A stretch of 64,000 bases of DNA from the NCBI GenBank assembly GCA_031253625.1, contig JAIRVZ010000122.1, forward strand, positions 1 through 64,000, in the 5' to 3' direction. The notes beneath the pieces are model-generated. The model was not told where the DNA came from. It did not search any database and saw only the letters and a program-made list of their open reading frames with translations. The translations under genes and the position numbers were made by a program. Shown piece by piece: positions 17,880 to 58,475 of the stretch. Numbering within the stretch: the first letter of the stretch is position 1; every line of letters begins with the position of its first letter. This DNA comes from Dysgonamonadaceae bacterium. Lineage in GTDB: Bacteria > Bacteroidota > Bacteroidia > Bacteroidales > Azobacteroidaceae.

Positions 17880-18872
17880 ATGGTAAATTACAAAGAATTA
17901 GGATTGGTAAACACCAAAGAAATCTTCAAAAAAGCCATCGATGGCAAGTATGCAATTCCTGCATTCAATTTCAATAACATGGAACAGATGCAAGCAATTA
18001 TCCAAGCTTGCGTGGAAGAAAAATCACCTGTGATTCTACAAGTTTCAAGCGGTGCTCGTAAATACGCAAACCAAACATTGTTGCGTTACATGGCTCAAGG
18101 TGCTGTTGAATATGCCAAAGAATTAGGATATGCAATTCCTGTTGTTCTTCACTTAGATCATGGCGATAGCTTTGAATTATGTAAAGACTGTATCGATATG
18201 GGATTCTCTTCCGTAATGATCGACGGTTCTCATCATTCATACGAAGACAATATCGCTTTAACCCGTAAGGTTGTAGAATATGCTCATGCACACGGAGTAA
18301 CCGTAGAAGGAGAATTAGGAGTATTGGCAGGTATCGAAGACGATGTTGTTGCAGAACACCATACTTATACTCAACCGGAAGAAGTTGAAGATTTCGTTAA
18401 AAAAACAGGCGTTGATTCTTTGGCAATTTCAATCGGGACTTCTCACGGTGCCAACAAGTTCACTCCCGAACAATGCACACGCGATGCTAATGGCGTATTG
18501 ATTCCGCCTCCATTGCGCTTTGACATCCTCGAAGAAATTGAAAAAAGAATACCGGGTTTCCCAATCGTATTACACGGAGCATCTTCTGTTCCTCAAGATT
18601 TGGTTGCTATCATCAATAAATACGGTGGAGCTATGAAAGATGCTATCGGTATTCCTGAAGACGAATTGCGCAAAGCTGCTTCTTCTGCTGTATGTAAAAT
18701 CAATATCGACTCCGACGGTCGTATCGCAATGACTGCTGCTGTTCGCGAAGTGCTTGCAACACAACCTGCTGAATTCGACCCAAGAAAATATTTAGGTCCG
18801 GCTCGCGACGGTTTGAAAAAACTTTACAAACACAAAGTTGTAAATGTTTTGGGTAGCGCAGGTAAAGCATAA
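17880..18872 (+). CDS. fba: Class II fructose-bisphosphate aldolase
   Basis: 330 residues. Zinc enzyme of glycolysis and gluconeogenesis that interconverts fructose 1,6-bisphosphate with glyceraldehyde 3-phosphate and dihydroxyacetone phosphate. Class II signatures: VVLHLDHGDSFELCKDCID (zinc histidine and catalytic aspartate), GFSSVMIDGSHHSYEDNI, VEGELGVLAG, the zinc histidines in SHGANKF, and VLHGASSVPQ. Length is typical. It is a single-gene unit with its own promoter, followed at once by a 95-nt palindrome. Confidence 0.96.
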   Translation: MVNYKELGLVNTKEIFKKAIDGKYAIPAFNFNNMEQMQAIIQACVEEKSPVILQVSSGARKYANQTLLRYMAQGAVEYAKELGYAIPVVLHLDHGDSFELCKDCIDMGFSSVMIDGSHHSYEDNIALTRKVVEYAHAHGVTVEGELGVLAGIEDDVVAEHHTYTQPEEVEDFVKKTGVDSLAISIGTSHGANKFTPEQCTRDANGVLIPPPLRFDILEEIEKRIPGFPIVLHGASSVPQDLVAIINKYGGAMKDAIGIPEDELRKAASSAVCKINIDSDGRIAMTAAVREVLATQPAEFDPRKYLGPARDGLKKLYKHKVVNVLGSAGKA

Positions 18873-18876
18873 TCCC

Positions 18877-18971
18877 TGTATTTGGAAAATCCAGAACGGA
18901 TTCAATTTTGGTAGCCCGACGTTTTACGTCGGGCTACCAAAATTGAATCCGTTCTGGATTTTCCAAATGCA
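18877..18971. repeat. 95-nt near-perfect palindrome after fba
   Basis: Arms of 43 bp (18880-18922 and 18926-18968) pair without a single mismatch around a 3-nt centre (TTT); one T/G mismatch and two more pairs extend it to 18877-18971. The tip is GTAGCCCGACG followed by TTTTA and CGTCGGGCTAC. It starts 4 bp after the fba stop. It may serve as a transcript end or a 3' stabiliser; no T tract follows, so a simple terminator is less likely. Confidence 0.9.
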
Positions 18972-55095: not shown

Positions 55096-55701
55096 ATGAT
55101 TTCTGTTTATAATATCAAACCCAAATTTCAGGCATTTCTGCAACCTGTTTTGGATTCGCTCCACAAAATGGGAGTAACGGCTAATCAAATCACAATTGGT
55201 TCTCTGTTTTTATCTCTCATTATTGGGCTCTTATTTTGGTTTGCCGATGTGTATCATGTGTTTTTTCTTGCCTTGCCCATCGGACTTTTCTTGCGAATGG
55301 CATTGAATGCTTTGGATGGAATGATGGCTCGAACATATAATCAACAATCAAAAAAAGGAGAACTATTGAATGAATTGGGCGATGTGGTTTCCGATTTATT
55401 CATCTTTTTTCCTTTGTTAAAGTTTGAACAAACGAGTTTGTACCTTATCGTTATATTTATCAGTTTAAGCGTTGTAAATGAGTTTGCGGGATTATTGGGA
55501 AAAGTTATATCGGGACAAAGAAGATATGAAGGACCCATGGGGAAAAGCGACCGGGCTTTTATAATGGGACTGTATGGTTTACTTGCTTTTTTATATGTTG
55601 ATATAACACTTTACTCCATCTATATATTTGTGGTTATTAACGCTCTACTTATATTGAGTACGGCAATTCGTGTAAATAAAACATTGAAATCAAATGGATA
55701 A
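55096..55701 (+). CDS. CDP-alcohol phosphatidyltransferase family protein
   Basis: 201 residues, membrane protein with about six helices. The signature D-G-x2-A-R-x8-G-x3-D-x3-D is present as ALDGMMARTYNQQSKKGELL followed by NELGDVVSD, with asparagine where the first aspartate of the last pair is expected. The NELGD variant seems usual for this subfamily. It joins a CDP-activated lipid with an alcohol such as inositol or glycerol phosphate; acceptor unknown. It overlaps cdsA by 8 bp, and CdsA makes its CDP-diacylglycerol. Confidence 0.9.
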   Translation: MISVYNIKPKFQAFLQPVLDSLHKMGVTANQITIGSLFLSLIIGLLFWFADVYHVFFLALPIGLFLRMALNALDGMMARTYNQQSKKGELLNELGDVVSDLFIFFPLLKFEQTSLYLIVIFISLSVVNEFAGLLGKVISGQRRYEGPMGKSDRAFIMGLYGLLAFLYVDITLYSIYIFVVINALLILSTAIRVNKTLKSNG

Positions 55702-56647
55702 AATATTTCATTTAAGGATTTTCGAGAACAATGATATTTTAATCATTGTCGGACTGATTTTCGGTATATTGAGTATTGTTTCTCTTGGACTTTTCATTTT
55801 CGGAAAAATAAAGCCGGAAGCTAATATCAGAGAACTTAAATCCCGCACCAAATCATGGTGGGTTATGTCGATAATGTTCATCGGAGCAACTGTTTTCAGT
55901 ACAAAAATCTCTTATATTGCCATCGCATTTCTTTCGTTTGTCGCATTTCGAGAAATTTATTCTCTATTAGGATTCAGACAATCAGACCGACGTGCAATCT
56001 TTTGGGCATTTTTGGCGATACCCATACAATATTATTTGGCTTACCTTGGTTGGTACGGTGCATACATCATATTTATTCCTGTTGTAATGTTCTTATTTTT
56101 ACCGTTACGCTTGGTATTAAAAGGAGATACGAAAGGAATTGTAAGTTCAATGGCAGGTTTGCAATGGATATTGATGTTGACGGTATTTGGTATCAGCCAC
56201 ATGGCTTATTTACTATCGCTCCCCGATATAGAAGGATTTAATGCCGGAGGTCGCGGATTGTTGCTATTTCTTGTTTTTCTCACGGAAATCAATGATGTTA
56301 TGCAATTTGTTTGGGGTAAATTATTTGGAAAACATAAGATTATACCGAAAGTAAGTCCCAATAAAACATGGGAAGGATTCATAGGGGGAGTTATTTCTAC
56401 CACGGCCATTGGATACGGACTTGGCTTTTTAACGCCATTAAGTACCGGATACCTGTTGTTAGTTAGTTTTCTTGTTGCAATAGCAGGCTTTGTAGGAGAT
56501 GTGGTAATGTCGTCCGTCAAAAGAGACGTTGGCGTGAAAGATACCGGAACAGCCATTCCCGGACACGGAGGAGTTTTAGACCGGATTGATTCGTTGGCTT
56601 ATACTGCTCCCATATTTTTTCATTTGGTTTATTATATAGCTTATTGA
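55694..56647 (+). CDS. cdsA: Phosphatidate cytidylyltransferase
   Basis: 317 residues, about eight membrane helices. The CDS signature is VMSSVKRDVGVKDTGTAIPG then HGGVLDRIDSLAYTAP. A preceding conserved stretch is VSPNKTWEGFIGGVISTT. It makes CDP-diacylglycerol from phosphatidate and CTP in the inner membrane. The 8-bp overlap with the CDP-alcohol transferase gene fits a joint phospholipid step. Confidence 0.95.
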   Translation: MDKIFHLRIFENNDILIIVGLIFGILSIVSLGLFIFGKIKPEANIRELKSRTKSWWVMSIMFIGATVFSTKISYIAIAFLSFVAFREIYSLLGFRQSDRRAIFWAFLAIPIQYYLAYLGWYGAYIIFIPVVMFLFLPLRLVLKGDTKGIVSSMAGLQWILMLTVFGISHMAYLLSLPDIEGFNAGGRGLLLFLVFLTEINDVMQFVWGKLFGKHKIIPKVSPNKTWEGFIGGVISTTAIGYGLGFLTPLSTGYLLLVSFLVAIAGFVGDVVMSSVKRDVGVKDTGTAIPGHGGVLDRIDSLAYTAPIFFHLVYYIAY

Positions 56648-56673: not shown

Positions 56674-57828
56674 ATGAATAACAATCTCAAACAAAACAAC
56701 GAATATAAAAAGTGGCTGACCGACATTAAAAAACGGATTAAGCAGACGCAAATAAAAGCGGCAATAAAGGTAAATACCGAATTATTGCGTCTTTATTGGG
56801 ATTTGGGTGAGGAAATTGTAGAAAAACAACTTAAATCTCAATGGGGCGACACGGTTATTCGGCAGTTGAGTTCAGATTTGAGAGAGGAATTTCCAAATGT
56901 ACAGGGATTTTCAGAAAGGAATCTTTTATATGCGAAACAATTATATTCCTTTTATAATCAAGAAGATAAAATACTGCAACAAGTTGTTGCAGTATTGCCA
57001 AAAAAACAAATCCCAATTACGCAACAAGTTGTTGCGCAATTACCGGACAAACAAACTTCAATTGTCCAGCAAGTTGCTGGACAATTAGAAAACCACCCCA
57101 TTTTTCAAATTCCTTGGGGACATAATTTATTGATAATAACCAAATGCCAATCCATAAAAGAAGCCCTCTTTTACGTTCAAAAAACCATACAAAATGGTTG
57201 GAGCCGTTCAATGCTCACGCATCATCTCGAACTGAATCTGTATGAGCGTGAAGGTAAAGCCGTTACCAATTTTGCCAGCACACTCCCTGCTCCGCAAAGC
57301 GATTTAGCTATGCAAACCTTGAAAGACCCCTATATATTTGACTTAATGACATTAACCGAAAAATATAATGAGCGGGAATTGGAAGACGCTTTAACGGAAA
57401 ACATCACAAAATTTCTGCTTGAACTGGGTGCCGGTTTTGCATACGTCGGACGACAAGTCCCTTTGAATATCGACGGTACGGATTACCCTGTTGATTTATT
57501 GTTCTATCACTTAAAATTGCGTTGTTTCGTTGTGATTGAATTGAAAACCGTTAAATTTGTTCCCGAAACAGCCGGAAAAACAAGTTTTTATTTATCTGCC
57601 ATTGACGATTTGATGCGTCACCCGACAGATAATCCGACTATCGGTTTGATTATTTGTAAAAACAAAAACAATCTTGTTGCCGAATATGCTTTACGAGGTA
57701 TAAATCAGCCTATTGGTATTTCGGAATATCAATTAACAAAAGTATTTCCCGAACAATTTAAAGGCAGTTTGCCTTCGATTGAAGAAATTGAAGAGGAATT
57801 AAATAGCATGAAAAAAAACAAAAATTAA
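56674..57828 (+). CDS. YhcG/DUF1016 family PD-(D/E)XK nuclease-like protein
   Basis: 384 residues. N-terminal DUF1016 domain (about 10-95, YWDLGEEIVEKQLKSQWGDT, FPNVQGFSERNLLYAKQLYS), then a repetitive linker at about 99-138, IPWGHNLLIITKCQ, and a C-terminal PD-(D/E)XK domain with DYPVDLLFYHLKLRCFVVIE then LK (D and E-x-K positions). Such proteins are associated with mobile or defence genes; enzymatic activity is inferred. The linker is coded by three 45-bp units, each with a 27-bp palindrome and reading (I/T/V)-QQV(V/A)... No restriction or phage genes are adjacent. Confidence 0.9.
   Translation: MNNNLKQNNEYKKWLTDIKKRIKQTQIKAAIKVNTELLRLYWDLGEEIVEKQLKSQWGDTVIRQLSSDLREEFPNVQGFSERNLLYAKQLYSFYNQEDKILQQVVAVLPKKQIPITQQVVAQLPDKQTSIVQQVAGQLENHPIFQIPWGHNLLIITKCQSIKEALFYVQKTIQNGWSRSMLTHHLELNLYEREGKAVTNFASTLPAPQSDLAMQTLKDPYIFDLMTLTEKYNERELEDALTENITKFLLELGAGFAYVGRQVPLNIDGTDYPVDLLFYHLKLRCFVVIELKTVKFVPETAGKTSFYLSAIDDLMRHPTDNPTIGLIICKNKNNLVAEYALRGINQPIGISEYQLTKVFPEQFKGSLPSIEEIEEELNSMKKNKN
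56970..57086. repeat. Three 27-bp palindromes with exact 45-bp spacing in the YhcG gene
   Basis: Palindromes at 56970-56996, 57015-57041 and 57060-57086, each two 13-bp arms around a central G. Left arms: AATACTGCAACAA, AATTACGCAACAA, AATTGTCCAGCAA. The first and third pair without mismatch; the second has one mismatch. The middle of each arm differs between units while pairing is kept. Confidence 0.92.
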
Positions 57829-57832
57829 AAAC

Positions 57833-58475
57833 ATGCAAGCACTTTTTCTAAAAATAATTTATAGTGTCGTTATTCGTAACTTTTTGAAACTGATTGTCGG
57901 CGTCAAATTCGACAAAGCAGATTTTTTGTTGCAAGAAAAACAGTTTATTATAGTGGCTAACCATAACAGTCACATGGATACTATGGCATTGATGGCATCT
58001 TTACCATCTTCCATCATTCATCATTCATAAAGTGAAGCCTGTGGCTGCTGCCGATTATTTTGGTAAAACTAAATTCAGAGCAGCAATAAGCAATTATTTC
58101 ATAAACACCTTGTTGATTTCTCGAAAAGGAGGAAGTGCCATTCAAACAATGAAAAAAGCATTGGACAACGGTAATTCGTTGATTATATTTCCCGAAGGCT
58201 CACGCGGAGAACCTGATAGCGAACAACAAATGAAACCGGGAGTTGCCCTATTGCTTTCTCTTTGCCCCGATGTGAAATATGTTCCTGCGTATATGTTTGG
58301 AATGGGAAGAATCATGCCTAAAGGCGATAGCTTAATTGTTCCTTACGATTCTATTTTGATATATGGCAAGCCAACTCTTCCCCATTCAAATGAAACAAAA
58401 GAAATTTTGGCGCAGATTGAAAATGACATGAAAGAATTAAAAAATAAAGTGAAAAACAGAGATTCCGGCATATAA
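57833..58475 (+). pseudogene. Lysophospholipid acyltransferase, frameshifted by a 7-bp duplication
   Basis: Two reading frames together give one PlsC protein of about 212 residues. The first part (57833-58030) holds FIIVANHNSHMDTMALMASL with the HX4D block (HMDTM reads as NHNSHMD), then reads into a stop after SSIIHHS. The second (58032-58475) holds VKPVAAADYFGKTKFRAAIS, LLISRKGG, and LIIFPEGSRGEPDSEQQMKP (block III, EGSRG). At the junction ATCATTC is present twice (58013-58019 and 58020-58026). Removing one copy gives PSSIIHKVKPVAAADYF, as in intact relatives. Either a true mutation, a switchable repeat, or a sequence error. It lies between the YhcG gene and hexokinase. Confidence 0.85.

Follow-up and report, generated by a model that had tools for sequence, protein, structure and literature searches.

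The 27-bp palindromes in the inter-domain linker of a DUF1016/YhcG nuclease gene are proposed to be DNA-binding sites for the protein of the same gene. Palindrome bases co-vary with specific residues of the encoded protein across the family, which makes it very probable that the site in each gene is read by that gene's own product. This recognition is held with high confidence, although it rests on sequence comparison and there are no binding data. Self-recognition was one of the options raised in the original prediction, and the co-variation supports it directly. The complete statement, in which a dimer of the encoded protein reads its own site as a built-in operator, is favored with appreciably less confidence, with neither binding nor expression data to back it. 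No description of palindromes in DUF1016 genes was found in a search limited to open-access literature.

The window gene and its palindromes

The window is the whole 64,000-nt stretch of DNA analyzed, and its features are collected in Table 1. Pfam matches DUF1016_N (PF17761, E = 1.9e-40, 138.6 bits against a cut-off of 32.8) and YhcG_C (PF06250, E = 8.3e-63, 211.4 bits against a cut-off of 32.5) are the only domains detected in the window protein; the same Pfam search returned no HUH/Tyr nuclease domain and no ParB family match. A sequence search of solved structures gave no significant match. The PADLOC HMM PDC-S02 (candidate defence) matches with E = 1.6e-156. Residues D274 and K291 of the nuclease domain are invariant in the 37 sequences compared, and the best Foldseek matches to its fold are NucS/EndoMS (E = 1.6e-5). 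From these conserved residues and the modeled fold the window protein is predicted to be a PD-(D/E)XK nuclease, with catalysis itself inferred; this assignment exists for the DUF1016/YhcG family (PMC1189080).

Table 1. Coordinates of the gene, its palindromic sites, putative recognition elements and neighbors in the window
Feature	Position	Strand	Remarks
cdsA (phosphatidate cytidylyltransferase-like), left neighbor	55694..56647	+	plsC directly next in four relatives
DUF1016_N + YhcG_C gene	56674..57828	+	384 aa; predicted PD-(D/E)XK nuclease; PADLOC PDC-S02 candidate defence family
First putative recognition helix, residues 81-94 after GFS turn	56914..56955	+	Co-variation of 82, 85, 86; AF2 helix
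Palindromic site 1	56970..56996	.	AATACTGCAACAAGTTGTTGCAGTATT; 13/13 pairs; codes KILQQVVAVL
Palindromic site 2	57015..57041	.	AATTACGCAACAAGTTGTTGCGCAATT; 12/13 pairs; codes PITQQVVAQL
Palindromic site 3	57060..57086	.	AATTGTCCAGCAAGTTGCTGGACAATT; 13/13 pairs; codes SIVQQVAGQL
Residue 152 codon	57127..57129	+	Couples less strongly, to arm position 4
Second putative recognition helix, residues 178-186 after GWS turn	57205..57231	+	Co-variation of 178, 179; AF2 helix
YhcG_C nuclease domain, residues 214-367	57313..57774	+	Pfam; active-site residues; Foldseek
plsC-like acyltransferase, right neighbor	57833..58475	+	Reading frame broken near 58010-58032

Sites 1-3 are odd palindromes with 13-bp arms, and their exact 45-bp period in the linker is as originally predicted. 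The center of each is the first base of a Val codon, and the single mismatch in site 2 is A57019 against C57037. The codon contribution was evaluated by keeping the protein fixed and resampling codons from the gene's own usage in 100,000 trials. The per-unit chance of the pairing is 0.00017 for site 1, 0.00053 for site 2 and 0.00007 for site 3, and the summed pairing of 38 was reached in 0/100,000 shuffles (null mean 22.7, maximum 32). Only two other 27-mers in the window have at least 12/13 pairs. The argument that protein pressure or codon bias alone would not produce the paired arms is upheld by these shuffles, and such an origin is excluded family-wide too.

Pattern searches of the 3.1-Mb genome found the cognate pattern in the window gene, a DUF1016 fragment on contig 98 and one HTH gene. 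The match in the HTH gene is chance-like, with unpaired ends in an unrelated-looking gene. A general genome repeat was rejected on this distribution, as was a Rickettsia palindromic element, since the cognate sites in this genome are restricted to DUF1016 genes apart from the one chance-like match. Three paralogues in the genome have differing cores (L001, CAACA; L002, CCTCA; L003, CAGAC), which argues for cognate readers and against a host factor as the site reader. The contig 98 locus (L005:1477-1737) is a DUF1016_N fragment that has a perfect palindrome, AATTTCTGCAACAACTTGTTGCAGAAATT, and an 11/13 palindrome beside a serine recombinase gene.

The cdsA and plsC genes are adjacent in four relatives, with neither a DUF1016 gene nor a palindrome between them. 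The closest homologue has 80% protein identity and lies at a different locus, where DNA similarity is restricted to the gene. The empty junction and the gene-confined similarity therefore indicate that the gene moves alone, and this comparison of loci identifies it as a lone insertion between cdsA and plsC. The junction without a palindrome also rules out the palindrome as a general insertion target at cdsA-plsC. Domain shuffling at the palindrome was rejected because contrasts in N- and C-terminal identity gave merely scattered discordant pairs. Two minor observations concern the gene borders. In one Bacteroidota genus (L181-L195), two different DUF1016 alleles follow the same ~90% identical upstream flank, and similarity is often lost no more than ~12 bp from the stop codon, which marks a hotspot of allele exchange. 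The plsC-like gene 3' of the DUF1016 gene in the window loses its frame at a short repeat, catcattcatcattcat (58005-58032), and is a pseudogene or an assembly error because the frame is single and open in relatives.

Linker palindromes across the DUF1016 family

Homologues were drawn from contigs and whole genomes of species, from viral contigs and plasmids, and from E. coli, and a linker palindrome was counted at 10/13 or more pairs with same-length windows elsewhere in the same ORFs as controls. The first set has a linker palindrome in 125 of 131 unique homologues compared to 11/131 control windows, and the mean best pairing is 11.7 in linkers versus 8.3 in synonymous shuffles. The second set has one in 103 of 113 further genes versus 3/113 controls; at a threshold of at least 12 pairs, these numbers are 58 genes and 0 controls. 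Genes from Rhodococcus, Burkholderia and Curtobacterium (59-66% GC) and from high-GC Cupriavidus also have the site, as do genes from Nostoc, Deinococcus and Planctomycetota. Palindromes with differing cores were expected in most homologues, and nearly all of those collected have them. A scan of viral contigs with E. coli YhcG gave no match. About 5-9% of the genes have no clear site, and a few have a weak one, for example a Meiothermus gene adjoining hsdS. DUF1016 genes at L254, L247 and L244 (in Citrobacter, Meiothermus and Deinococcus plasmids) lie next to or within operons for type I restriction-modification (hsdM, hsdS) and have weaker palindromes of 9-10/13.

The logo of 140 canonical sites gives the consensus AATT-N3-CAACA-N3-TGTTG-N3-AATT with a sharp drop in information past position 13, and the Ile codon at the left edge has T as its third base in 96%. 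Most sites share one codon phase; seven are even-centered and two other phases are present. Comparison of units within a gene shows changes in both arms that are paired in 81 cases versus unpaired in 7, at positions 4, 7, 8, 9 and 12. A second analysis counted mismatches in otherwise paired arms, conditional on sites with at least 11 pairs, and found 86 A·C and 43 G·U. G·U is rarer than A·C and is not preferred; therefore, the signal is in the DNA and not the RNA. Codon shuffles, the logo edge, the Ile third base and the lack of a G·U preference together lead us to conclude that the palindrome is a DNA-level signal. The original prediction of a maintained and diversified DNA or RNA element stands for DNA, supported by the homologue palindromes, and is not supported for RNA. 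A terminator was also considered, as sites 1-3 are terminator-like on the minus strand, but there is no conserved T-run in the logo.

Co-variation of palindrome bases with protein residues

Weighted, APC-corrected mutual information between the palindrome bases and every protein column was calculated for 222 genes (85 effective). The strongest couplings link arm position 7 to residue 82 (Z = 9.1), 8 to 85 (Z = 7.3), 5 to 86 (Z = 6.3), 3 to 178 (Z = 7.1) and 2 to 179 (Z = 5.4), and each partner is the single outstanding protein column. Arg82 goes with G at -7 in 102/105, Arg179 with C at -2 in 86/86, and Arg or Lys178 with C at -3 in 108/115. The coupling is seen in both arms. It is not circular because the sites were chosen for palindromicity and not for residue fit. 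Synonymous third bases follow the coupling within one amino acid: the pre-core Val codon is GTG with R82 (39/41) and GTC with K82 (11/11), and the central Val codon with R179 is GTG (21/21). Peptide-peptide contact is therefore not the source of the coupling.

The couplings replicate in two separately collected data halves with overlapping lineages. Residue 149 is a close rival for arm position 2 in the first half, and the coupling of residue 152 to arm position 4 replicates in the second half only. In 109 disjoint sister pairs, the coupled columns rank first for arm positions 2, 3, 4, 5, 7 and 8, and residue 86 is top for position 6 too. Weighting and sister pairs remove kinship only partly. 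Arm positions 9 and 12 have no convincing residue partner, though they vary between units of one gene and still pair. Prediction trained on genes <50% identical gained for residues 178 (176/208 versus 86/208), 179 (164/202 versus 77/202) and 82 (160/210 versus 108/210). The gain is modest for residue 85 and for residue 86 with arm position 5, and this test found none for residue 86 with position 6. With a code trained on genes <60% identical, a protein's own site has a median rank at the 96th percentile when set among foreign sites, and the extra units of one gene rank at the 94th percentile. The window sites rank at the 97th (site 1), 92nd (site 2) and 67th (site 3) percentiles, and site 3 departs from the code at -7, where it has C in place of G.

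The AF2 model of the whole protein is of moderate quality (mean pLDDT 72), and the palindrome-encoded stretch, residues 99-136, is predicted to be disordered (pLDDT <50). The N part of homologue L099 gave a better model (pLDDT 81) with helix pairs at 49-62/71-83 and 112-125/129-137 and a G-F/W-S turn in each. The coupled residues lie at the start of the second helix of each pair, and in our own reading of the model the pairs are like two helix-turn-helix units. The top Foldseek matches to the N part are the ParB and Noc DNA-binding proteins, which are not significant (E = 0.37 or worse). In the proposed mechanism, helix-start residues 82, 85 and 86 would read arm positions 7, 8 and 5, and residues 178 and 179 would read positions 3 and 2. 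The protein is inferred to bind as a homodimer with one subunit per arm, and both arms would have to change together for this reason.

Possible uses of an intragenic site

Autocontrol is ranked first among the uses by inference, and homing-like or initiator-like use second. DUF1016 ORFs that move alone would rely on promoters at the landing place, so an operator inside the ORF would be useful anywhere, and the nuclease could stall or limit its own expression wherever it was inserted. The disordered linker would be the sole spot in the ORF tolerant of any peptide and hence the home of the site, and tandem copies would strengthen self-control. Autocontrol as the main use is the least certain step; it is inferred without expression data, and we propose it only tentatively. 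A pure operator leaves the conserved catalytic residues and the E. coli site rearrangements described below unexplained. Paired variation at the uncoupled positions 9 and 12 is not demanded by a dimer alone and is likewise unexplained. The moderate code fit of window site 3 and the genes without a site also count against the explanation.

Pairing without base-specific reading would leave the palindrome as a DNA cruciform or hairpin. The co-changing arm positions are in line with such a structure, but the strong base-residue coupling and the conserved AATT edge indicate that base identity is read, and structure alone is improbable. Any DNA palindrome can fold as RNA, and the tandem repeats resemble toxI arrays, so mRNA hairpins acting in attenuation, translation pausing or as an RNA antitoxin of the type III toxin-antitoxin kind were considered. 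Structured RNA would favor G·U, the opposite of the mismatch counts, and this explanation is very improbable; type III toxin-antitoxin RNA repeats were rejected because RNA-level pairing is not met. The symmetric changes at positions 9 and 12 could come from templated quasipalindrome correction, which, like protein plus codon constraint, would need no function. The presence of the palindrome at one spot across phyla, its conserved motif and the coupling of distant residues through synonymous bases contradict a functionless origin, which is the least credible of the explanations.

A mobility or homing site, at which cleavage of the cognate palindrome by the nuclease would lead repair to copy the gene or linker into site-bearing alleles, draws its support from the conserved nuclease residues and from E. 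coli. The K-12 yhcG gene has three linker sites and one downstream, and the non-coding copies in K-12 are located 16 bp 3' of yhcG and directly 3' of gltD. A yhcG match is present in 4,434 of 5,426 E. coli genomes and is nearly whole in 3,324, and the yhcG-less, CFT073-type gltD-nanQ junction is matched over at least 80% in 946/5,426. This junction retains one perfect site that scores at the 99th percentile for the E. coli YhcG residues; its left flank is that of the K-12 site after gltD and its right flank resembles that of the K-12 site after yhcG. The E. coli B sequence diverges immediately past site 3, and two of the sites are missing from O157. In PEC1020, gene nt 210-460 form a block that differs from K-12, with most other sequence 93-100% identical. 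These rearrangements fit breakage at the sites and also fit ordinary recombination between repeats. Of the binding or recombination site originally suggested, recognition by the gene's own protein is supported by the co-variation, and recombination is only suggested. Against mobility, no palindrome is present at the empty cdsA-plsC junction of the four relatives, and a nuclease that cuts such sites would attack its own gene, which holds one to five of them. The lone CFT073 site is perhaps the scar of a deletion, or a terminator where two genes converge. We consider mobility rather unlikely but still a possible role. In B-type E. coli (L083:3412-3877), a small gene with the annotation 'transposase' takes the place of the C-terminal part of yhcG; most of this gene is present in 715 genomes, and its product does not look like a transposase to us.

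Self-recognition with autocontrol, the preferred reading, has partial parallels. Toxin-antitoxin and restriction-modification C protein autoregulators share the co-evolution of specificity with operator and the control of their own gene, but their operators are in promoters, whereas almost all DUF1016 genes have the site within the ORF. A promoter-proximal copy is convincing only in L188, ~50 bp upstream; other candidates lie in neighboring DUF1016 fragments. ParB/Noc bind parS/NBS as dimers that read a palindrome with two helices per half-site and switchable specificity residues, and B. subtilis parS is located inside spo0J. The dimer-palindrome scheme is similar, and these proteins are the top, insignificant Foldseek matches; however, parS is nearly invariant with many copies outside parB, and DUF1016 proteins have an attached nuclease domain and no Pfam ParB match. 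The pT181-type RepC and phiX174 gene A proteins are initiator nucleases with the origin inside the initiator gene, and RepC specificity varies between related plasmids together with its origin. They share a nuclease recognition site within their own coding sequence, but they are HUH/Tyr-type plasmid or phage replication initiators, whereas DUF1016 proteins are of the PD-(D/E)XK type and are encoded mostly by lone chromosomal or mobile genes with no known replication role. Homing endonucleases are likewise site-specific nuclease genes that move singly, and a cognate site is present in one empty allele, the E. coli CFT073 type, and absent at cdsA-plsC. A homing gene interrupts its target, whereas the DUF1016 gene holds intact copies of its site. 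Rickettsia palindromic elements are selfish repeats of ~100-150 nt in many unrelated genes (PMC4316617); they too are in-frame palindromic DNA inside genes, but the DUF1016 sites have a length of 27 bp and are restricted to genes of this one family.

More broadly, a whole family of mobile single-gene nucleases might spread or defend itself by recognizing a private intragenic palindrome, with protein and site co-evolving as matched, mutually orthogonal pairs and linkers diversified by breaks at the site. Each gene would then serve as target, operator and identity tag for itself; this is speculative and rather unlikely at present. If self-recognition is true, the gene would be a clear case in which binding of a protein to its gene dictates codon choice. 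The DUF1016/YhcG family is large, has no known role and is a defence candidate, and the residue-to-base code would give it a first cognate target, opening its function to direct tests, in E. coli K-12 among others. The study of changing DNA-binding specificity would also gain hundreds of natural protein-site pairs.

Two further palindromic features were observed. A hairpin, GTAGCCCGACGTTTTACGTCGGGCTAC, at window positions 18911-18937, 3' of an ORF ending at 18872, is probably an intrinsic terminator. Four palindromes with the core TGCCTCTATAGAGGCA and ~60-bp spacing at L064:520-728 are unrelated to DUF1016 and are possibly another covarying array.
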